From a virus, in the IMG/VR virus record IMGVR_UViG_3300044631_002422, positions 84,314-148,313 of that record: a stretch of DNA of 64,000 nucleotides; one strand, 5' to 3'. This document shows positions 2,715-18,227 of the stretch, one piece after another. A program made the position numbers and the translations under genes. The notes beneath the pieces are model-generated. The model saw only the letters and a program-made list of their open reading frames with translations. It was not told where the DNA came from and did not search any database. Every line of letters begins with the position of its first letter. Positions within the stretch are counted from its first letter, which is position 1.

Positions 2715-3123
2715 TGCTGCGCAATACATTGCCGAGCTTGTATGTATAAGAAAATCGGAAAAGGATAACAAAGGAAGTTTAGCTTATAAGTTTTGGAATC
2801 AAACAGAAAGCTACGAAATACAAATTCGTGTAGCCAATAAACTAATAAATAAGTACGGAGAAAGAGCCGTGCTTCATTATTTAAATAGCCCTAGCGGATC
2901 GAATGTTTATTCGCTTGGGTTTTTGCATAAAAGTAAGAATTTTGTTTTACCGTTAGATTTTGTGAAAAAGGGTATTGAAAATTCTAAGAAGATAACAGAT
3001 GCCGAAGACGCAAAACCAAAAAAGATAGTAGAACAACCAACAGGCGAATACAAATCAAAACAATCATTACCAGATAAAAAAAGTTTATTTTTCAAATTGA
3101 GGAAAGCAGATGGCAGTAACTAA
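2653..3123 (+). CDS. Hypothetical protein, 156 aa
   Basis: Not recognised. The ATG at 2653 lies inside the previous gene and has no strong Shine-Dalgarno. A later start is possible, but the conserved-looking part begins by about residue 20 (SAAQYIAELVCIRKSEKDN). Residues about 20-105 form a compact helical domain (LINKYGERAVLHYLNSPSG); residues 110-156 are Lys/Pro-rich and probably flexible. It overlaps the recA start by 14 bp. Adjacency to recA suggests a recombination or replication accessory role, but this is only positional. Confidence 0.6.
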   Translation: MTQKKQNTKKFSSISTGQPCSAAQYIAELVCIRKSEKDNKGSLAYKFWNQTESYEIQIRVANKLINKYGERAVLHYLNSPSGSNVYSLGFLHKSKNFVLPLDFVKKGIENSKKITDAEDAKPKKIVEQPTGEYKSKQSLPDKKSLFFKLRKADGSN

Positions 3124-5212
3124 AATACCTGATTATCTTAAAAAGTCAGCAAAAGATTATGGACAGATAATTAAAAGTGGTACAGAAGTATTAAAAGAAA
3201 AAAGCAGTTATGAAATTATTTCTGTGGGTCCAGCAATTGATATTGCTCTTGGAGGAGGAATAAAAGAAGGTAGTTGGGTTACTTTAACCGGCGATCCTAA
3301 GAGCGGAAAAGATCAGCCACTGACATCTACAGTTTATACACCAGATGGTCCTAAAACAATGGGATCATTAAAAATTGGAGATTTGGTTTGTACTCCAGAT
3401 GGCGACTTCGCGAAAATAAACGGTATTTATCCACAGGGATTAAAAGATGTTTATAGAGTTACATTTAATGATGGAACTTTTGCGGAGTGCGGGATAGACC
3501 ACTTATGGAAAGTATGCAAAAATTATCACGGAAGAAATGACGAATGGGTAGTTTTACCATTGAGACAGATAATAGAAGAAGGCTTATTTTACAGCGATAG
3601 AGCAAAGTGGAAAATTCCTATATGTGAACCTGTTTATTTCGGCTGTAAAAATCTTGAAATAGATCCGTATATACTGGGGTGCTTAATTGGCGATGGTGGG
3701 TTGTCACAAGGAACTCCTATTATTACCACATCAGATAATGAAATTTTAGAAGCTTTTAAATATTATGCAAAAAATAATGGCTTAGAAATTCATCATAGAT
3801 CAAGATATGATTATTCTATTGTTGGATATGAAAAAAATGTTAATAATTTAACTAATAAGTTAAGAACATTAAATCTTATGGGTAAAAACTCTCATACAAA
3901 ATTTATACCACAAAACTATCTTTATTCATCTATTAATGATAGATTTGAATTAATTCGTGGGCTGATGGATACTGACGGATATAATGACAATGGTAAGTCT
4001 GCTGAATACAGCACTGTGTCATACTTATTAAGTATTCATGTGGCAGAGTTATTGCGTTCGCTTGGGTATATGGTAAAAACAAAAGAAAGAATGACAAAAT
4101 GCAATGGTCAAGAATTTAAATCTTTTAGACTTTATATATCAGGCAATGATGTAAATAAGCTTTTTAAGCTTAGTCGTAAAATTTTCTATTCAAAAAGAAA
4201 AAAACCAAAATTATTCAAAACTATAAAGAAGGTTGAAGTTGTTAGAAAAGAAGAAACTCAATGTATCTTTATTAACCACCAAGACCATCTTTATTTAACT
4301 GATAGTTTTAATGTTACTCACAATACAACTACAGCAATGCAGATAGCCGCTAATTGCCAAAAGCTTGGAAGAAACATAATTTATATTGACGCAGAAGGAA
4401 GATTCAAGGATATGAATTTTCAAGTGGACGGACTAGATCCTGAAAAGATGCTTATTATGGCTCCAGAAGACAAACCTATTCCAGCTGAGAAGTTTCTTGA
4501 ATGGGCTTATATGATGATGAGTCACTCTGACAATTATGGGGCAGTATTGATTATTGATTCTATATCGTCGCTAATACCAGAAAAAGAACTTGATGGAGAT
4601 TTCACTGCTGGCCGCGCTGGATTACCAAAGGTTCTTTCTGTATTCACGAAGAAGGTTGGTCAGTTACTACCGAGGCAACGCGGTCTTGTTATTGCAATAA
4701 CTCATTACATTGCGAATACATCCGGTTTTGGTAAAGCTAAAATGGCTGATGGTGGAAATAAAATTCAATATCAAGCTGACACAAGAATGGAAATTGCTGG
4801 CGGCGGAGAAAATACCCCGGCAGTTAAATTTTGGGAAGATGATGAAGGTAAACGAGTTGGTCAGGTAGTTAACTGGAAAATTATTTGTTCATCTATGGGA
4901 CCACCGGGAGGACAGGTACAGAGTTATATCAAGTACGGCCACGGGATTGACCGAACGCAGGAAATTTTAATGCTTGCTTTAGATCTCGGTTTAATAGATA
5001 AATCCGGCGCTTGGTTTACTTGTTCTTTTATTCAACTTTATAAAGATTTAGCAAAACAAATTTTTCCAGATATAAATGTTGAAAATCAAGAAGAGTTGTT
5101 TTCAGTAAAAGGTTTTAAGTTTCAGGGGCAAAATAAACTATATGATTTTTTGAAATCTCATCCAGTTCTTGTTGATACCCTAGAAAAGATGATAAAGGAA
5201 AACTTAACATGA
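3110..5212 (+). CDS. recA: RecA/UvsX-like recombinase precursor with intein
   Basis: A 700-residue precursor; removal of the 338-residue intein (68-405) leaves a 362-residue RecA-fold strand-exchange ATPase, close to the normal family size. The N-extein ends LTGDPKSGK and the C-extein begins TTTAMQIAANC, so splicing rebuilds a P-loop GDPKSGKT. Later motifs are the YIDAEGRF segment, the Walker B strand VLIIDSISSLIP, and the loop-2-like region around ITHYIANTSGFGKAKMADGG. The protein should form filaments on single-stranded DNA and drive recombination-dependent replication and repair. GAGGAAAG precedes the ATG. Its 3' end overlaps the next start (ATGA). Without splicing the ATP site is destroyed, so activity depends on the intein. 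Confidence 0.92.
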   Translation: MAVTKIPDYLKKSAKDYGQIIKSGTEVLKEKSSYEIISVGPAIDIALGGGIKEGSWVTLTGDPKSGKDQPLTSTVYTPDGPKTMGSLKIGDLVCTPDGDFAKINGIYPQGLKDVYRVTFNDGTFAECGIDHLWKVCKNYHGRNDEWVVLPLRQIIEEGLFYSDRAKWKIPICEPVYFGCKNLEIDPYILGCLIGDGGLSQGTPIITTSDNEILEAFKYYAKNNGLEIHHRSRYDYSIVGYEKNVNNLTNKLRTLNLMGKNSHTKFIPQNYLYSSINDRFELIRGLMDTDGYNDNGKSAEYSTVSYLLSIHVAELLRSLGYMVKTKERMTKCNGQEFKSFRLYISGNDVNKLFKLSRKIFYSKRKKPKLFKTIKKVEVVRKEETQCIFINHQDHLYLTDSFNVTHNTTTAMQIAANCQKLGRNIIYIDAEGRFKDMNFQVDGLDPEKMLIMAPEDKPIPAEKFLEWAYMMMSHSDNYGAVLIIDSISSLIPEKELDGDFTAGRAGLPKVLSVFTKKVGQLLPRQRGLVIAITHYIANTSGFGKAKMADGGNKIQYQADTRMEIAGGGENTPAVKFWEDDEGKRVGQVVNWKIICSSMGPPGGQVQSYIKYGHGIDRTQEILMLALDLGLIDKSGAWFTCSFIQLYKDLAKQIFPDINVENQEELFSVKGFKFQGQNKLYDFLKSHPVLVDTLEKMIKENLT
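3311..4324 (+). mobile_element. Class 3-type intein with LAGLIDADG endonuclease in the RecA P-loop
   Basis: 338 in-frame codons interrupt the P-loop lysine/threonine junction. Block A reads DQPLTSTVYTPDG with no Cys or Ser at the first position. Block B has GIDHLW, with His131 and Trp133 of the precursor. Two LAGLIDADG motifs are LGCLIGDGG (189-197) and LIRGLMDTDG (281-290). Block F is QCIFI with Cys385, followed by HQDHLYL. Block G is NVTHN with Thr403, His404 and Asn405, then Thr406 as +1. Trp in block B, Cys in block F and Thr in block G are the known class 3 'WCT' signature, where the block F Cys performs the first attack. The N boundary (Asp68 rather than Gln69 or Pro70) is inferred because it restores GKT. 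Confidence 0.9.
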
Positions 5213-11718: not shown

Positions 11719-12466
11719 AATAGTTCTTTTAACTGAGTTTTATAAGTCAAAATTCGAAGAAAGAAACAAAGAGTTGCTGGACTCTTTGCAAAGAAATATT
11801 GATTGTGAACATATCAAAAAAATTGTTTTGTTTTATGAAAATAGTCTAGACGAATATCCAGATATAGCATTCAGCCCAAAGATTGAAATTGCTTATACAA
11901 AATCAAGAATGAAGTTTGCAGACTATTTTAATTACTACAATAGTAACCTATCTGGACATATTTGCATAATTGCCAACAGTGATATCTACTTTGATGATTC
12001 AATAAAACATATTCACAACATCAGAGAAAATGAATTTTTATGTATAACCAGATGGAATCGAAATGAGCTTCAGGGACATGACGAATATAGTCAAGATGTG
12101 TGGGTTTTTAGAAAACTAATACCGCAAAAAATGGTTGATTGTTCAGGTTTTTACCTTGGCAAACAGCAATGCGATAATAGAATATCTTTTGTGGCGATGA
12201 AGAATGGATTTGATTTAATTAATCCGTGCCATTTAGTCAAATGTCAACATCTACATAAAGACCCAGATAAAATCACTTACAACAAAAAAGAGAACTTTAA
12301 AAATTTACTATATTTGTCAACGGTTAAACCGTCTGATAAAATTGAATATACCGAGAATAATGTTTGTTCATATTGGGCAGATTCTGGTGGAACTAGGTAT
12401 TGCGGATCATGGTATGTTAACTTTTGCAGGAATGAATTAAATGACTTGGAATCCAATCAATTGTAA
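11690..12466 (+). CDS. GT-A-like glycosyltransferase
   Basis: 258 residues starting with TTG; AGAAGGA sits 7 bases upstream and no better start exists before the first strand (VKIVLLTEFY). The fold reads as GT-A-like: an initial beta strand, a segment KKIVLFYENS, and a DxD-like metal site in IIANSDIYFDD (about residues 94-104). The second half has many Cys, His and aromatic residues (HLVKCQHLHKDPDK). It overlaps the exonuclease by 29 bp and the polymerase start by 26 bp. Like the exostosin-type gene at 5.2 kb, it is a sugar-transfer gene inserted among replication genes. Donor and acceptor are unknown. Confidence 0.6.
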   Translation: MDTTKLPEVKIVLLTEFYKSKFEERNKELLDSLQRNIDCEHIKKIVLFYENSLDEYPDIAFSPKIEIAYTKSRMKFADYFNYYNSNLSGHICIIANSDIYFDDSIKHIHNIRENEFLCITRWNRNELQGHDEYSQDVWVFRKLIPQKMVDCSGFYLGKQQCDNRISFVAMKNGFDLINPCHLVKCQHLHKDPDKITYNKKENFKNLLYLSTVKPSDKIEYTENNVCSYWADSGGTRYCGSWYVNFCRNELNDLESNQL

Positions 12467-14018
12467 AACACATTTTAGCTTGCAGCACGGTTTTTGCAAA
12501 CCTGATAAACTTTCTAAAAAATGCGCTGATTATGGTTACACATCTTGCGGAATCGCAGATTTTGGAACCTTGTCTGGTGCAGTTGACTTTCATCAAAATT
12601 GCACTAAATATGGTATCAAGCCAATAATTGGGTGCGAATTTGATGGATACATTCTTTATGCTAAAAACAAAAACGGATGGTTTGACTTGGTTAAATATGT
12701 ATCAAACCAAACACTGGATGTTTTAAAAGAAATAGCAAAAAATGGAAATGTACTTTGTGTAACACCATCTGTAAACGGTTTTGCTAATCTATTTAAATCA
12801 AACCATATTCAACTAGATTATCCAAGTGAAGCTATCTATTATGTGGAAAAAAATGATGCAGATTGTCATAGAATTATGCTTTGTGGTAAGCTAAAAACAA
12901 CACTAAAGAAAATTAAATTACTGGAAGTAAACGAGTACAGCCAGTTTTTTGATGATAATGACAGATGGTATTTACCATCCAATGATGAAATTCTAGACAG
13001 GTCTAAAAATATCGCTAAAATAGTTGACGCTTGCGAAGCTTACGAGCTTGCTGGACCTCCTATGCTTCCTGCTTTTGAATGTCCAACTGGCTATGATGAA
13101 GACGAGTATTTGACTGAACTTTGTAGAAGTGGCTGGAAAAATAAATTAGTTCCATTCAAAAAAATATCAACAGAAGAACAAAAGAGTATTTACGCAGAAA
13201 GAGTAAAGCATGAACTTAAGGTTATATTCAAGGCTAAACTTTCTGGTTATTTCTTGATTGTTCAAGATATCATTCGATGGGTTAAATCAAAAGGTTGGCT
13301 TGCTGGTCCGGGACGAGGCAGTGCCGCAGGATGCCTTATTTCTTATCTACTTGATATAACTGAAGTAGATCCAATAGAATATGATTTGATCTTCGAAAGG
13401 TTTTATAATGAAGGAAGAAACACCGATGGTAACGTGGCTATTCCAGATATTGATATGGATATACCAGCCGAACACCGCGACGAAGTTATTGATTATATCA
13501 AACAAAAATATGGAGCGTCTAACGTATCTCAAATGATAACATTTGGAAGACTGCAAGGCAGAGCGGCCATAAAAGAAGTTCTTAGAATCAATGAGGCTGT
13601 GTCATTCGCAGAAATGAATGCTATAACAGATAGTATTCCTGACGAAGCTAAAATTTCTGACCAGTTAGAGCTTATGGAAGAAAAGTCAATCATCAAGTGG
13701 GCGTTAGAAAATGAACCAGATAATTTAAGGAATTGGTGCTTCTATAATGACAATGAAAAGCTTGATGGTCCTTTGGCGAATTTGTTTGAACAAGCTATAA
13801 AAATAGAAGGAACAAATAAGTCTCAAGGTAAACACCCTGCTGGTGTTATTATATCGAAACACAAGCTAAATGAAGTTTGTCCAATGACAAGTGATAAGTC
13901 TGGAGATTCTATTGTTGCTTTTGAAATGAATGCTTTGGAATACCAAGGCCATATAAAATTTGATGTTCTGGGAATTGATTTACTTTCTAAGATAATGGAG
14001 ATTTGTGAAAATGACTGA
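12441..14018 (+). CDS. dnaE: DNA polymerase III alpha, N-terminal part (PHP + palm)
   Basis: 525 residues equal to the first half of DnaE. Residues 1-70 are a PHP-like domain whose metal ligands are mostly lost: the usual TDH is ADF here (39-41). The palm has GPGRGSAAG (289-297), the catalytic PDIDMD with Asp338 and Asp340, and the third carboxylate Asp508 in IKFDVLGI. The frame then stops after LLSKIMEICEND, exactly where the palm passes to the fingers in E. coli DnaE. The next DnaE residues are found at 15371, after three other genes. No intein sequence is present at this break. The two products must assemble without covalent joining. Confidence 0.93.
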   Translation: MTWNPINCKTHFSLQHGFCKPDKLSKKCADYGYTSCGIADFGTLSGAVDFHQNCTKYGIKPIIGCEFDGYILYAKNKNGWFDLVKYVSNQTLDVLKEIAKNGNVLCVTPSVNGFANLFKSNHIQLDYPSEAIYYVEKNDADCHRIMLCGKLKTTLKKIKLLEVNEYSQFFDDNDRWYLPSNDEILDRSKNIAKIVDACEAYELAGPPMLPAFECPTGYDEDEYLTELCRSGWKNKLVPFKKISTEEQKSIYAERVKHELKVIFKAKLSGYFLIVQDIIRWVKSKGWLAGPGRGSAAGCLISYLLDITEVDPIEYDLIFERFYNEGRNTDGNVAIPDIDMDIPAEHRDEVIDYIKQKYGASNVSQMITFGRLQGRAAIKEVLRINEAVSFAEMNAITDSIPDEAKISDQLELMEEKSIIKWALENEPDNLRNWCFYNDNEKLDGPLANLFEQAIKIEGTNKSQGKHPAGVIISKHKLNEVCPMTSDKSGDSIVAFEMNALEYQGHIKFDVLGIDLLSKIMEICEND

Positions 14019-14241
14019 CAATCGAGACGTTTATAAGGCTGTAATTTTTGACGGTGCTATCATAGAATCAAACGGAGTGTCTTTGTGCAACCTTGAAGAT
14101 GCTATGCGAGGAAATTCTTTTATACCGCGAGCAAAGTACCAAGTGTGGTCAGATCGGCACAAGTTTCATGAGTTGTTCTTTAGTATTGATGAAGCTGTAG
14201 AAAAATTCTTAGAACTCAAGTCTAGAAAGAATTGGAACTAA
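14011..14241 (+). CDS. Hypothetical protein, 76 aa
   Basis: Not recognised. ATG 14011 overlaps the end of the polymerase N-part by 8 bp and has GGAG 10 bases upstream, so I prefer it to the GTG at 14005. The sequence (VYKAVIFDGAIIESNGVSLCNLEDAM, then a helix IDEAVEKFLELKSRK) is mixed alpha/beta with no metal site. It is the first of three genes that separate the two halves of the polymerase palm/fingers. The C-terminal amphipathic helix could be a protein contact. Confidence 0.6.
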   Translation: MTDNRDVYKAVIFDGAIIESNGVSLCNLEDAMRGNSFIPRAKYQVWSDRHKFHELFFSIDEAVEKFLELKSRKNWN

Positions 14242-14242
14242 T

Positions 14243-14665
14243 ATGGAAATAGAAGTTTCTAATGGTGAAGTAATTGACAAATTAACTATTTTGAATATAA
14301 AGTCTGAGAAAATTAAAGATCAAGAAAAACTTGAGAATATCCATCGCGAATTGCATTTTCTAAGGATGAAGTCTACCGAGTGGTGGAGTTATTGGGAAAA
14401 AGAGATACTTCCTTTATTTGATAGTTTACTATCGGTTAATCGGCAACTTTGGGATATTGAAGATAAAATACGCGAGCTAGATAATGAGGTATTTCTACCA
14501 CGTTTAGATGCTGCTATACAATCTGTATACCGTTTTTCTAAAGTTTGTGAATATATAGAGTGCGCAAGAATGGTTTATACGTTGAATGATAAACGATCTA
14601 AAATCAAACGCGAAATCAATGAAATTACCAAGTCTGGAATAATAGAAGAAAAATCTCATTTTTAG
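14243..14665 (+). CDS. DUF6165 family protein
   Basis: 140 residues matching the DUF6165 pattern. It opens VSNGEVIDKLTILNIKSEKI (family: S-GE-DK-TIL-IK), followed by the LHFLRM helix and LLSVNRQLWDIEDKIRE. It ends with ARMVYTLNDKRSKIKREIN and EEKSH. The fold should be a helical bundle. The family occurs in bacteria and phages, often near glycan or nucleotide-sugar genes, and its function is not established. Here it sits inside the split polymerase region, one base after the previous stop and 10 bases before dnaQ. No catalytic residues can be proposed. Confidence 0.75.
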   Translation: MEIEVSNGEVIDKLTILNIKSEKIKDQEKLENIHRELHFLRMKSTEWWSYWEKEILPLFDSLLSVNRQLWDIEDKIRELDNEVFLPRLDAAIQSVYRFSKVCEYIECARMVYTLNDKRSKIKREINEITKSGIIEEKSHF

Positions 14666-14675
14666 AAAGATTTAT

Positions 14676-15362
14676 ATGAATCATCGGGATATAATCGTGT
14701 TTGATTTTGAAACGACTGGCAGGAATCCATTAAAGTGTCAACCAACACAAATTGCCGCTGTAGCTATACATGCTAGAAAGTTGACAATACAACCCGGAGG
14801 AGTTTTTGAAAGTAATATACGTTGCATAGTAGATGACGAAAAGGCTATAGCGGCTGGTTTTGACCCAGTAGAAGAAGGCGCTCTTGAAGTTACTAGAAAA
14901 ACAAGAGATCAAATATCTAAAGGACCATCGCCAAAAGTAGTATGGCAAAAGTTCACCCAGTTTTGCGAAAAATTTAACTTCAACAAGACCTCATTTTCTG
15001 CCCCAATAGCGGCTGGTTATAATATCAATAGTTATGATATGCCGATTGTACAAAGAATGTGTGAAATGTATGGTCCTGTAGATGAAAAAACTGGCCGTCA
15101 AAAAATATTCAATCCTATCTTTTCAATGGATCTTATGCAGCACATTTACTGCTGGTTTGAAAACAATGCCGATGTTAAAGGTTACAGCATGGACTATCTA
15201 AGAGACTATCTTGGAATGTCAAGCGAAAAATCACACGATGCATTGCAGGACGTTAAAGATACAGCTAATATACTAATAAGGTTTCTGGTTATGCAAAGAA
15301 ACCTTTCGAAGAAAATTAAATTTGAGAAAGCTTTTGCGAATGGCGATCTTCACATAAAATAG
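14676..15362 (+). CDS. dnaQ: DnaQ-like 3'-5' proofreading exonuclease
   Basis: 228 residues of the DEDDh exonuclease superfamily. ExoI is DFETTG at 10-15, ExoII is NINSYD with Asp121, and ExoIII is HDALQDVKD with His187 and Asp192. This is the arrangement of the polymerase III epsilon subunit. An insertion of about 30 residues separates ExoI and ExoII. The gene lies between the first and second pieces of the alpha subunit, which supports a role as its proofreading partner. In Pol III the epsilon subunit docks on the PHP domain, which is degenerate here. The C-terminal 30 residues are basic. Confidence 0.92.
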   Translation: MNHRDIIVFDFETTGRNPLKCQPTQIAAVAIHARKLTIQPGGVFESNIRCIVDDEKAIAAGFDPVEEGALEVTRKTRDQISKGPSPKVVWQKFTQFCEKFNFNKTSFSAPIAAGYNINSYDMPIVQRMCEMYGPVDEKTGRQKIFNPIFSMDLMQHIYCWFENNADVKGYSMDYLRDYLGMSSEKSHDALQDVKDTANILIRFLVMQRNLSKKIKFEKAFANGDLHIK

Positions 15363-15370
15363 GAATCCGA

Positions 15371-16189
15371 ATGTTTGATATTAATAATTTTGACGACTCC
15401 AAAGTTTGGGACTTGATTTGCGAAGGAGATACTAAAGGTATTTTTCAGCTTGAATCAAATCTTGGTAGGTATTGGGCAAAAGAAACTAAGCCGCGCAATA
15501 TAAAAGAATTAGCGGCTTTGATTAGTCTTATTCGTCCCGGAACTCTGCTTGCTAGAGATGCAAATGGTAAAAGCATGACTCAGGTTTATGCTGATCGTAA
15601 GAATGGTAAACCCAATTCGCCGGTAGAATATCTGCACGATTCTTTGGAGCCAATACTCAAAGAAACATACGGCGTTTTGGTTTATCAAGAACAATCTATG
15701 ATGATCGCGCAAAAACTGGCAGGTTTCGATTTGAAAGAAGCTGACGCACTCAGAAAGGCTATTGGAAAAAAGAAAGCCGATCTCATGGAGAAAGTAAAGA
15801 AAGCTTTTCTAGAAGGCGCGGCTAGTCAAGGAATCATTACTAAGGAAATTGCAGAGGAATTGTTTTCTTGGATTGAAAAATCTAACCGTTATGCATTCAA
15901 TAAATGCTTGTCTCCCAAAACTATTGTAATCACAGAAAATGGAGAAAAGTGTTTAGATGAATTAAATATAGGCGATAAAGTTCTTGCTCCTAAAAATTTG
16001 AACGAAGATGAATTTGTTGAAGTTATAGATATAATTGATAATGGAATAAAAGAAGTTGTTGAAATAACTATGGAAGATGGTAAAAAAATTATATGCACAT
16101 TAGACCATAAATTCCTTTGTTCCGATGGAAAAGTTCATAAATTGATAGAAATTTTAGAGCAGAATTTGGAAATAATGTGTATAGATTAG
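15371..16189 (+). CDS. dnaE: DNA polymerase III alpha, middle part fused to an N-terminal split intein
   Basis: 272 residues. Residues 1-178 continue DnaE directly from the first piece: GDTKGIFQLES (19-29), the LIRPGTLL segment, GVLVYQEQSMMIAQ and LRKAIGKKKADLM, ending NRYAFNK. At residue 179 a Cys begins an intein N-fragment of 94 residues that runs to the stop. The rest of the polymerase is supplied by the gene at 17088. Trans-splicing with that gene's intein C-fragment should join YAFNK to SHAISYA and restore the conserved FNKSH motif of the fingers. AGGA upstream supports the ATG. A homing endonuclease gene starts 29 bases after the stop. Confidence 0.93.
   Translation: MFDINNFDDSKVWDLICEGDTKGIFQLESNLGRYWAKETKPRNIKELAALISLIRPGTLLARDANGKSMTQVYADRKNGKPNSPVEYLHDSLEPILKETYGVLVYQEQSMMIAQKLAGFDLKEADALRKAIGKKKADLMEKVKKAFLEGAASQGIITKEIAEELFSWIEKSNRYAFNKCLSPKTIVITENGEKCLDELNIGDKVLAPKNLNEDEFVEVIDIIDNGIKEVVEITMEDGKKIICTLDHKFLCSDGKVHKLIEILEQNLEIMCID
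15905..16186 (+). mobile_element. Split intein N-fragment (IntN) in DnaE
   Basis: 94 codons from Cys1. Block A begins CLSPKTIVITENGEKCLDEL and leads into IGDKV. Block B has ITMEDGKKIICTLDHKF with the TxxH motif (Thr, Asp, His). The fragment ends after ILEQNLEIMCID with a stop. Length and block content match known natural split-intein N-parts. There is no LAGLIDADG domain. It sits after the Lys of the conserved FNK|SH motif. Confidence 0.92.
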
Positions 16190-16218
16190 TATGAGATTTA
16201 TTAACAGGAGTCATACTA

Positions 16219-17124
16219 ATGAGTATAAAAAAAGAAGATTGGCATATATGCAAAATGTGCAATAAAAAAATTAAAGATCTATCTAAAGAGCTTGGCGGCA
16301 GCGGTATATACAGCACAGAAGTATTTGCCAAACATTTAAATCAATTTCATAAAATTACTCCAGAAGATTACTTTGAAAAAATATCGAATAGACCAAAATG
16401 TTCATGTGGAATATGTGACTCAAATGTCGATTTAACTTGGAAAGGCAAAACCAATTTCAACTGGAGACAATATAAATGCGGAAGAAATGAAGGTGTTAAA
16501 AAATGGAGCGAAGAAGCAAAGAAAACTAGATCCGGTAAAAATAATCCAATGTATAATAAAATACCTTGGAATAAAGACAAAACCAAAGATAACTCAGAAT
16601 CTCTAAAAATTGTTTCTCAAAAAATGAGTGGACGAAGCGTGTCTGAAGAGATTAGGCAAAAACAATCAAAATCAGCTAAATCTCGTTTGAGTCATGGTCA
16701 TACAGGCTTTAAACATTCCGAAGAAAGTAAAGATAAAATGCGCCAATCGACTTTATCAATGATAAAGAATGGAAGATTTAAACACACAAAAACCAAACCG
16801 CATTTAGAATTTGCCAAGATATTGTCTGAATTAAATATTGCTTTTCAAGAAGAATATGTTATTAAATATTGGTCATTTGATTTTTTCTTGACTGATTTCC
16901 ATGTATTAATAGAGGTAGATGGAGATTATTTTCATTCAAATCCAAAGTTTTATAACAAACCAAAAACCAAAACTCAAAAAATAAACTCATACAGAGATCA
17001 AAAGAAAAATGATTTTTGCGAGTCTAATGGCTACGCTTTGATTAGAATATGGGAAGACGATGTTATCAACAACAAAGAGAAAATATTATGCAGCCTAAAA
17101 GAATTGTTCATGTTCGGACAATAG
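16219..17124 (+). CDS. Vsr-like homing endonuclease between the split-intein halves
   Basis: 301 residues. An N-terminal C2H2-like finger has Cys11, Cys14, His39 and His44. A CSCGICD segment follows at 61-67, then repeated nuclease-associated DNA-binding motifs of the NUMOD3 type (GKNNPMYNK, SEEIRQKQSKS, HSEESKDKMRQS). The C-terminal nuclease has SFDFFL (Asp221), IEVDGDYFH (Glu232, Asp234, His239) and RIWEDDV, fitting the Vsr-like EDxHD family. CAGGAG lies 8 bases before the ATG, and the gene overlaps the IntC start by 37 bp. In the 'fractured gene' arrangement known from marine metagenomes, such an enzyme cuts uninvaded alleles and spreads the split intein. It is free-standing and not fused to either half. 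Confidence 0.88.
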   Translation: MSIKKEDWHICKMCNKKIKDLSKELGGSGIYSTEVFAKHLNQFHKITPEDYFEKISNRPKCSCGICDSNVDLTWKGKTNFNWRQYKCGRNEGVKKWSEEAKKTRSGKNNPMYNKIPWNKDKTKDNSESLKIVSQKMSGRSVSEEIRQKQSKSAKSRLSHGHTGFKHSEESKDKMRQSTLSMIKNGRFKHTKTKPHLEFAKILSELNIAFQEEYVIKYWSFDFFLTDFHVLIEVDGDYFHSNPKFYNKPKTKTQKINSYRDQKKNDFCESNGYALIRIWEDDVINNKEKILCSLKELFMFGQ

Positions 17125-17201
17125 GAAATATTCCAACAATGGATATTGAAGTCAATAGCGATTCTCATATTTTTTATGGAGATGGTATCGTTACATCAAA
17201 T
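17088..17201 (+). mobile_element. Split intein C-fragment (IntC) in DnaE
   Basis: 38 codons. Block F reads TMDIEVNSDSHIFYGDG and block G reads GIVTSN, followed by Ser as the +1 nucleophile. The penultimate residue is Ser instead of the usual His. The terminal Asn is present for cyclisation. It pairs with the fragment at 15905-16186; the endonuclease gene lies between. Confidence 0.9.
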
Positions 17202-18227
17202 TCACATGCTATTTCATATGCAATCAATGCTTATTGGTCCGCTTATTGTAAAACCTACAAACGTAAGAAGTTTTATGAAAAATATCTCAATAGGTCAGAT
17301 AGAAAGCCTGATCCAGATATAGAGAAGAAACAATTAATAATGGATGCAAAGCGGTGCGAGATAGAAGTTTTACCGCCCAGATTACAACATTTACACAAGG
17401 ACTTTACTAGGCATCCTAGCAAAGATATTATTTACTATGGATTGTCACATGTTAAACATGTTGCTGAAAAGGAGTGTGACAAACTCATTGGTTTATCAGG
17501 TGTTGAAAAGTATAACTGGATGGATTGCTTGATCAATATCGTTCATGGTTTAAATATTAATAAAAGCGCCACCGTAGCGCTTATTTCTGTTGGTGCGTTT
17601 AATGGAATCAACAATACAACAAGTAGACAAAAGATGTTGTACGAGTTTGATAGCTGGAAGCATCTTACTGCCAAAGAACAAGAAGCAATTGCAAATGCCT
17701 ATAATTCAGGTTCGCAAAAACCAAAAGATTTAACGCAGGCAATAGAGTGGCTTATTACAAATACCAAGATTAACTCCAGAAGATTGCAATCGGTAGAAGA
17801 TATAAAAAATTCTCTAAAAAATCCTTTCTATGATATCGACGATAAACCAGAAACAATTGCCGCAGATGAAGAAAAATATATGAGTTGCTCCTTAACATGT
17901 AGTAAAGTTGATGGTTTAGACCTAAATACAGTGATAAATATGTGTCAAGATGTGTCTAGCCATTCTATAATAGGTAAGGTAACTCTTGCTGTAGAAATTG
18001 TGCGCATAAAGATTGTAAAGACTAAAAAGGGTAAAACTCCCGGTCAGGAAATGGCTTTTCTGACTGTCGAGGATGGAAGTGGATCTTTAGACTCAATAAC
18101 CATTTTCCCAGAAGCTTACGATAAATACAAAGACTTACTAGTGGAAAATAATACTGTTCTTTTGATTGGCGAGATATTTAAAAAAGATAAAGAAGCTATC
18201 ATCGTCAATCAAGTATCGCAAATTTGA
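17088..18227 (+). CDS. dnaE: C-terminal split intein fused to DNA polymerase III alpha, C-terminal part
   Basis: 379 residues from ATG 17088, chosen because the intein C-fragment starts at MQPKRIVHV and AAAGAGA lies upstream; an earlier in-frame ATG at 17049 would add unrelated residues. Residues 1-38 are IntC and residue 39 (Ser) is the +1 residue. The polymerase resumes with SHAISYAINAYWSAYCK. Later parts are the YYGLSHVKHVAEKE helix-hairpin-helix-like region and a C-terminal OB domain (residues about 290-379; AFLTVEDGSGSLDSITIFPEAY). The C-terminal tau/beta-binding domain of E. coli DnaE is absent or very short. Trans-splicing should join it to the 15371 product, giving a polypeptide of about 520 residues that pairs with the first piece. 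Confidence 0.92.
   Translation: MQPKRIVHVRTIGNIPTMDIEVNSDSHIFYGDGIVTSNSHAISYAINAYWSAYCKTYKRKKFYEKYLNRSDRKPDPDIEKKQLIMDAKRCEIEVLPPRLQHLHKDFTRHPSKDIIYYGLSHVKHVAEKECDKLIGLSGVEKYNWMDCLINIVHGLNINKSATVALISVGAFNGINNTTSRQKMLYEFDSWKHLTAKEQEAIANAYNSGSQKPKDLTQAIEWLITNTKINSRRLQSVEDIKNSLKNPFYDIDDKPETIAADEEKYMSCSLTCSKVDGLDLNTVINMCQDVSSHSIIGKVTLAVEIVRIKIVKTKKGKTPGQEMAFLTVEDGSGSLDSITIFPEAYDKYKDLLVENNTVLLIGEIFKKDKEAIIVNQVSQI

Follow-up and report, generated by a model that had tools for sequence, protein, structure and literature searches.

The window analysed here, a stretch of 64,000 nucleotides, is the final 64 kb of a 148,313-base, possibly incomplete IMG/VR record from an uncultured virus. The locus belongs to a replication cluster with genes for DnaB helicase, primase, dNMP kinase, an exonuclease, several pieces of the polymerase III α subunit (DnaE), a DnaQ-like exonuclease, and SSB. 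The polymerase gene is broken twice, upstream between palm and fingers and again at the motif FNK/SH, with the following features:

12441..14018, + strand: DnaE N-terminal piece, PHP domain and palm (PF07733, 1.6e-72; PF02811)
14005..14241, + strand: 78-residue ORF with no assigned function, present in the first break of most relatives (tblastn)
14243..14665, + strand: DUF6165-like protein in the first break (PF19662, 31.6 bits, cut-off 27)
14676..15362, + strand: DnaQ-like 3'-5' exonuclease, between the palm and fingers genes (PF00929, 3.9e-15; phrog_192)
15371..15904, + strand: DnaE fingers piece (N-extein), ending in RYAFNK (PF17657, 1.9e-45; Pol III α fold)
15905..16189, + strand: intein N fragment, 94 residues, with Cys1 and a TLDH block, stop codon TAG (TIGR01445)
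arms 16185-16194 and 16211-16220, + strand: predicted RNA hairpin (-9.5 kcal/mol, z -3.35)
16219..17124, + strand: putative free-standing EDxHD/Vsr-like homing endonuclease, 301 residues (TIGR00632; 3R3P by sequence and fold; 10 homologues)
17088..17201, + strand: intein C fragment, 38 residues, ending in GIVTSN (TIGR01443; conserved in relatives)
17202..18227, + strand: DnaE C-terminal piece (C-extein), starting with SHAISYA, HhH and OB domains (PF14579, PF01336; NCBIfam Pol III α models)

Residues 133-517 of the N-terminal piece align with residues 203-564 of E. coli α, and all three expected catalytic aspartates are present in the motifs PDIDMD and KFD (located by eye). The fingers domain occupies the first part of a 272-residue ORF (15371-16189) and aligns with E. 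coli α from residue 591 onward, FNK corresponding by alignment to E. coli residues 756-758, and the last piece, beyond the intein C fragment, matches Pol III α, HHH_6 and the OB fold. The 148-kb record, possibly incomplete, holds one Pol III α palm and one finger domain; within it neither a second DnaE, nor an uninterrupted polymerase gene elsewhere, nor a family A or family B polymerase was detected. The split DnaE is the only DNA polymerase detected in this virus, and another polymerase is possible given that the record may lack part of the genome. Promoter and terminator patterns did not rise above the expectation from shuffled sequence. The same virus carries, besides the split intein in dnaE, a contiguous LAGLIDADG intein in the Walker A motif of its RecA-type recombinase gene (3110-5212 of the window), with the junctions GDPKSGK / DQPLTSTVY...VTHN / TTTAMQ, of which the exact N-terminal residue is uncertain.

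The original prediction had placed a 94-residue intein N-fragment directly after FNK on the middle polymerase piece and a 38-residue C-fragment before SHAISYA on the last one, and both assignments are borne out. The N fragment opens at Cys179 of the 272-residue ORF (coding 15905-16186), scores 32.4 bits against TIGR01445 (NCBIfam cut-off 24.5), finds DnaE and gp41-1 inteins in the PDB, and is conserved across 11 loci, while the structure model of the whole 272-residue piece matches both Pol III α fingers and the Npu DnaE split intein. The C fragment lies just above its threshold (TIGR01443, 16.2 bits, cut-off 15.6); its start is the ATG at 17088, overlapping the 3'-terminal part of the endonuclease ORF (an arrangement shared by most relatives), in contrast to the mechanical ORF, which opens at 17049. 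Since profile (TIGR01445, TIGR01443), PDB and structure matches agree, the two halves count as members of the intein family. The splicing residues are present, namely Cys1, the TxxH block, the terminal Asn and Ser at position +1, and among split homologues belonging to the window's group Cys1, TLDH and the SN/S junction are kept, apart from one TLNH. In the window, as in its close relatives, the terminal Asn is preceded by Ser and not by His, a residue that is common at this position among inteins, not universal.

The 301-residue product between the halves had been described from the letters as an EDxHD-type endonuclease, an assignment that later searches strengthened. Its match to the Vsr family (TIGR00632, 7e-7) falls under that family's cut-off; the sole sequence match in the PDB is 3R3P, the catalytic domain of I-Bth0305I. 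Fold comparison of the nuclease domain with Foldseek again gave 3R3P as the best match (E 2.3e-5), followed by Vsr, from a full-length model with a pTM of only 0.39. The protein combines pairs of conserved cysteines with a basic central region and a nuclease domain at its C-terminus, and residues E212, E232, D234, H239, D260 and K263 are invariant in 10 homologues (assigned to the active-site motif by eye). These observations support a putative homing endonuclease of the EDxHD/Vsr-like type, related to I-Bth0305I. The latter, a group I intron endonuclease, shares the nuclease domain by sequence and fold, whereas the enzyme of the window sits inside a split intein and has a different N-terminal part. 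The predicted RNA hairpin spans the boundary of the intein N fragment and the endonuclease gene, its 5' arm holding the intein-N stop, its loop a Shine-Dalgarno-like AGGAG, and its 3' arm the first two bases of the endonuclease ATG. It is strong also in two relatives (L007 and L118) and weak or absent at other loci, and covariation was not significant, being no better than in shuffles; as a lead only, the hairpin may couple translation of the endonuclease to that of intein-N.

The anatomy of the locus is that of a fractured gene, with the FNK and SH halves in separate ORFs, a split-intein part on each, and an endonuclease gene between them; sequence, profile, structure and comparative evidence agree on this layout in dnaE. 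The comparative part draws on two scans with the polymerase pieces, which yielded about 80 orthologous viral loci (some overlapping) that share this gene cluster. In nearly all of these, the fingers and the C-terminal piece form a single ORF with FNK-SH intact, i.e., an empty site, and dozens of relatives have exact in-frame empty sites, one of them 86% identical in these exteins. The closest relative, L003, has an empty site, with 93% and 82% identity in the two exteins. A complete unit of intein-N, endonuclease and intein-C was found at FNK/SH in L002, L007 (identical to L008), L017, L087, L116, L118, L119, L122, and L123. Together with the window, these nine make ten distinct viral lineages with the three-part arrangement at an identical codon junction, a recurrence that, on the sequences compared, is beyond chance. 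L124 retains an endonuclease remnant (the first 229 residues missing, plus an internal stop) between two intein halves that are both open. In a collection of 50,697 phage records the best matches to intein-N and to the endonuclease reached about 44% and 34% identity, respectively, so that the lineage is considered absent from described phages. One genome scan for a bacterial-chromosome home of this intein gave a single partial match only.

The upstream break, between palm and fingers, is common to nearly all relatives; in most cases the exonuclease gene and a short conserved ORF lie in between, and no intein sequence was found there in the relatives examined. It is the older of the two breaks, and intein-free. 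The 78-residue ORF that adjoins the palm gene in the window (14005-14241) gave no Pfam, NCBIfam or PHROGs match, and the DUF6165-like protein is full-length only in the nearest relative, L003. Palm and fingers were seen joined in one relative only, L007 (6126-8810), in an 894-residue ORF that also includes intein-N, the exonuclease gene lying upstream and not between; a tree with very distant outgroups does not decide whether this fusion was kept or regained. In L118 (251-3141), on the other hand, the palm gene is itself broken at GPGRG/S by a second split intein, which comes with a separate putative endonuclease ORF (1518-2351). Its polymerase is encoded by four genes, separated by the GPGRG/S break, the palm/fingers break, and the FNK/SH element, with two predicted splicing events.

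The history of the element differs from that of the gene in which it resides. Phages with and without the intein do not separate in the extein tree, which requires at least seven changes of state and pairs the window with the empty-site L003; in the intein tree the window groups with L002 and L116. Between the latter two, nucleotide identity is 88% for intein-N, 92% for the endonuclease and 87% for intein-C, compared with 75, 79 and 72% for the three polymerase pieces. The elements are far more alike than the polymerases (87-92% against 72-79%), and their synonymous divergence is far lower; the discordance is therefore read as horizontal transfer of the whole unit between phages with diverged polymerases. 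A search in 60-nt blocks around the junction gave no clear co-conversion tract. In this pair, the sole one where dN/dS was measurable, values of 0.07 for intein-N and 0.14 for the endonuclease show constraint by purifying selection on both, which were therefore functional in the recent past.

More distant viral DnaEs present further states at the same junction. Contiguous mini-inteins sit exactly at FNK/SH in L132 and L134, and larger contiguous inteins in L125, L130, L133, L142, and L150/L160, the inserts of the last containing what by eye is an HNH-like motif. Split inteins occur here with a LAGLIDADG (L129) or an HNH (L089) endonuclease according to Pfam, or with other free-standing ORFs that by eye resemble the EDxHD type (L128, L131, L135, L138, L145), and L139 has a split intein without an intact endonuclease, together with an apparent remnant. 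The split L129 and the contiguous L132 are nearest neighbours (100/100), with inteins 47% and exteins 52% identical. An AU test rejects a single clade of FNK/SH split inteins, with at least three changes by parsimony; other known split inteins were here grouped with the remaining rows, and it is because of this that the L129/L132 pair provides the clean evidence. As a separate observation, the inteins of L125 and L128 begin after FNK with Thr, and others with Ser, rather than with Cys; either is unusual as a first intein residue. L137 (3597-5954) has a contiguous intein at the palm site GPGRG/S and an intein-like start inside the catalytic motif YPDID/C, which suggests several intein sites in viral DnaE. 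For the junction as a whole, slightly better than even odds are given to the view that it records permanent gene breakage. Endonuclease genes from unrelated families, namely EDxHD-like, HNH and LAGLIDADG, would repeatedly have inserted within a contiguous intein and split one gene into two, the break outliving the endonuclease in L124 and L139; with the older intein-free break and the palm split intein of L118, this would have moved a replicative polymerase towards being encoded by as many as four genes.

The element in the window is best explained, with a probability of about 0.9, as a mobile split intein in dnaE at FNK/SH, whose predicted trans-splicing yields a fingers-C-terminal chain that pairs with the palm, while the endonuclease spreads the unit. 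By its sequence, the gene is read in three parts: the fingers piece ending in the intein N half, the endonuclease on its own, and the intein C half leading into the C-terminal piece. As for established inteins, the halves would meet after translation and fold into one Hint domain, whereupon Cys1 and Ser+1 would ligate FNK to SH into an unbroken fingers-C-terminal chain. Gene order and conservation are the basis for supposing that this chain pairs non-covalently with the separate palm piece to give a working polymerase. In the manner of homing endonucleases, the enzyme would cut intein-free dnaE at FNK/SH, and repair by recombination would copy the whole unit into the cut gene. The original reading of the locus is largely supported; its statement that splicing must restore FNK/SH for DNA replication went too far in that splicing would rebuild the fingers-C-terminal chain only and not the whole polymerase, because the catalytic palm is encoded separately (12441-14018).

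It can be argued that the three polypeptides assemble without splicing, the intein halves being inactive leftovers that perhaps aid docking, as the intein-free palm/fingers break indicates a lineage that tolerates a split polymerase, and the terminal Asn lacks a preceding His. This appears improbable in view of the splicing residues kept throughout the window's group, the low dN/dS of intein-N (0.07), and the position of a 94-residue insertion inside the conserved FNKSH motif, which is unlikely to be harmless unless removed. Marginally less probable still is an independent endonuclease gene that simply landed at this site and does not mobilize the intein. Related nucleases do exist elsewhere without detectable inteins, and in L124 and L139 split inteins outlast the decay of the endonuclease; against this, across the whole of the window's group a single endonuclease lineage goes with the intein at FNK/SH, and in L002/L116 intein and endonuclease show equal excess similarity. 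The element of the window is known from a single metagenome-derived record, which would leave room for an artifact of sequencing or assembly, or for a contiguous intein broken by a frameshift, yet stop, separate endonuclease frame and restart are repeated in nine further independent lineages; the chance of either is negligible, and assembly error was rejected.

Known systems place the mobile split intein of the window in perspective. Fractured genes, reportedly described by Dassa et al. in 2009, are said to be enzyme genes, of phage-type DNA enzymes, interrupted by a split intein between whose halves lies a free-standing endonuclease gene, frequently of Vsr-like type. The arrangement in the window is the same, the host gene being dnaE at FNK/SH, already broken once without an intein. 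The cyanobacterial DnaE split intein (Ssp, Npu) is inserted before CFNK and has Ser or Ala before the terminal Asn. It resembles that of the window in being split, in residing in the same region of DnaE, and in having no His before the terminal Asn, and differs in its site, four residues away (directly before CFNK instead of after FNK), in its distant gene halves, and in having no endonuclease. A single clade of all FNK/SH inteins apart from those of Npu and Ssp is not rejected (AU p 0.51) in a tree that has a weak backbone and in which the reference split-intein sequences were entered by hand. A cyanobacterial DnaE intein as the source found no support, given the four-residue offset and this tree. 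In Pseudomonas phage MIJ3, a split PolB is found with a split intein and an HNH endonuclease (PMC6892783). Here too a replicative-type phage polymerase is interrupted by a split intein whose halves flank an endonuclease gene, but the polymerase is of family B, the endonuclease of HNH type, and the site unrelated to that of the window. The group 2.2 jumbo phages have a split minimal Pol III α, made as two proteins from genes far apart, alongside PolB (PMC7824862). They share with the window a Pol III α in separate proteins, whereas in the window the pieces lie close together, PHP and OB domains are kept, and no PolB was found. The fractured-gene arrangement is already known, and the lineage found in the window is absent from the described phages; what makes its element of interest is the range of states that surround it.

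For the conversion of one gene into two that are joined only as proteins, cyanobacterial dnaE being an example, arguments usually start from end points. In the present case a single codon junction of one gene exhibits empty, contiguous, fractured, and endonuclease-less states, that is, almost every stage of the life cycle. With the close contiguous/split pair L132/L129 and the transfer pair L002/L116, it becomes possible to test in which order the steps took place and how split elements home. The new split inteins may serve as ligation tools, and a polymerase lineage that is stably split between palm and fingers offers a natural test of the divisibility of Pol III α.
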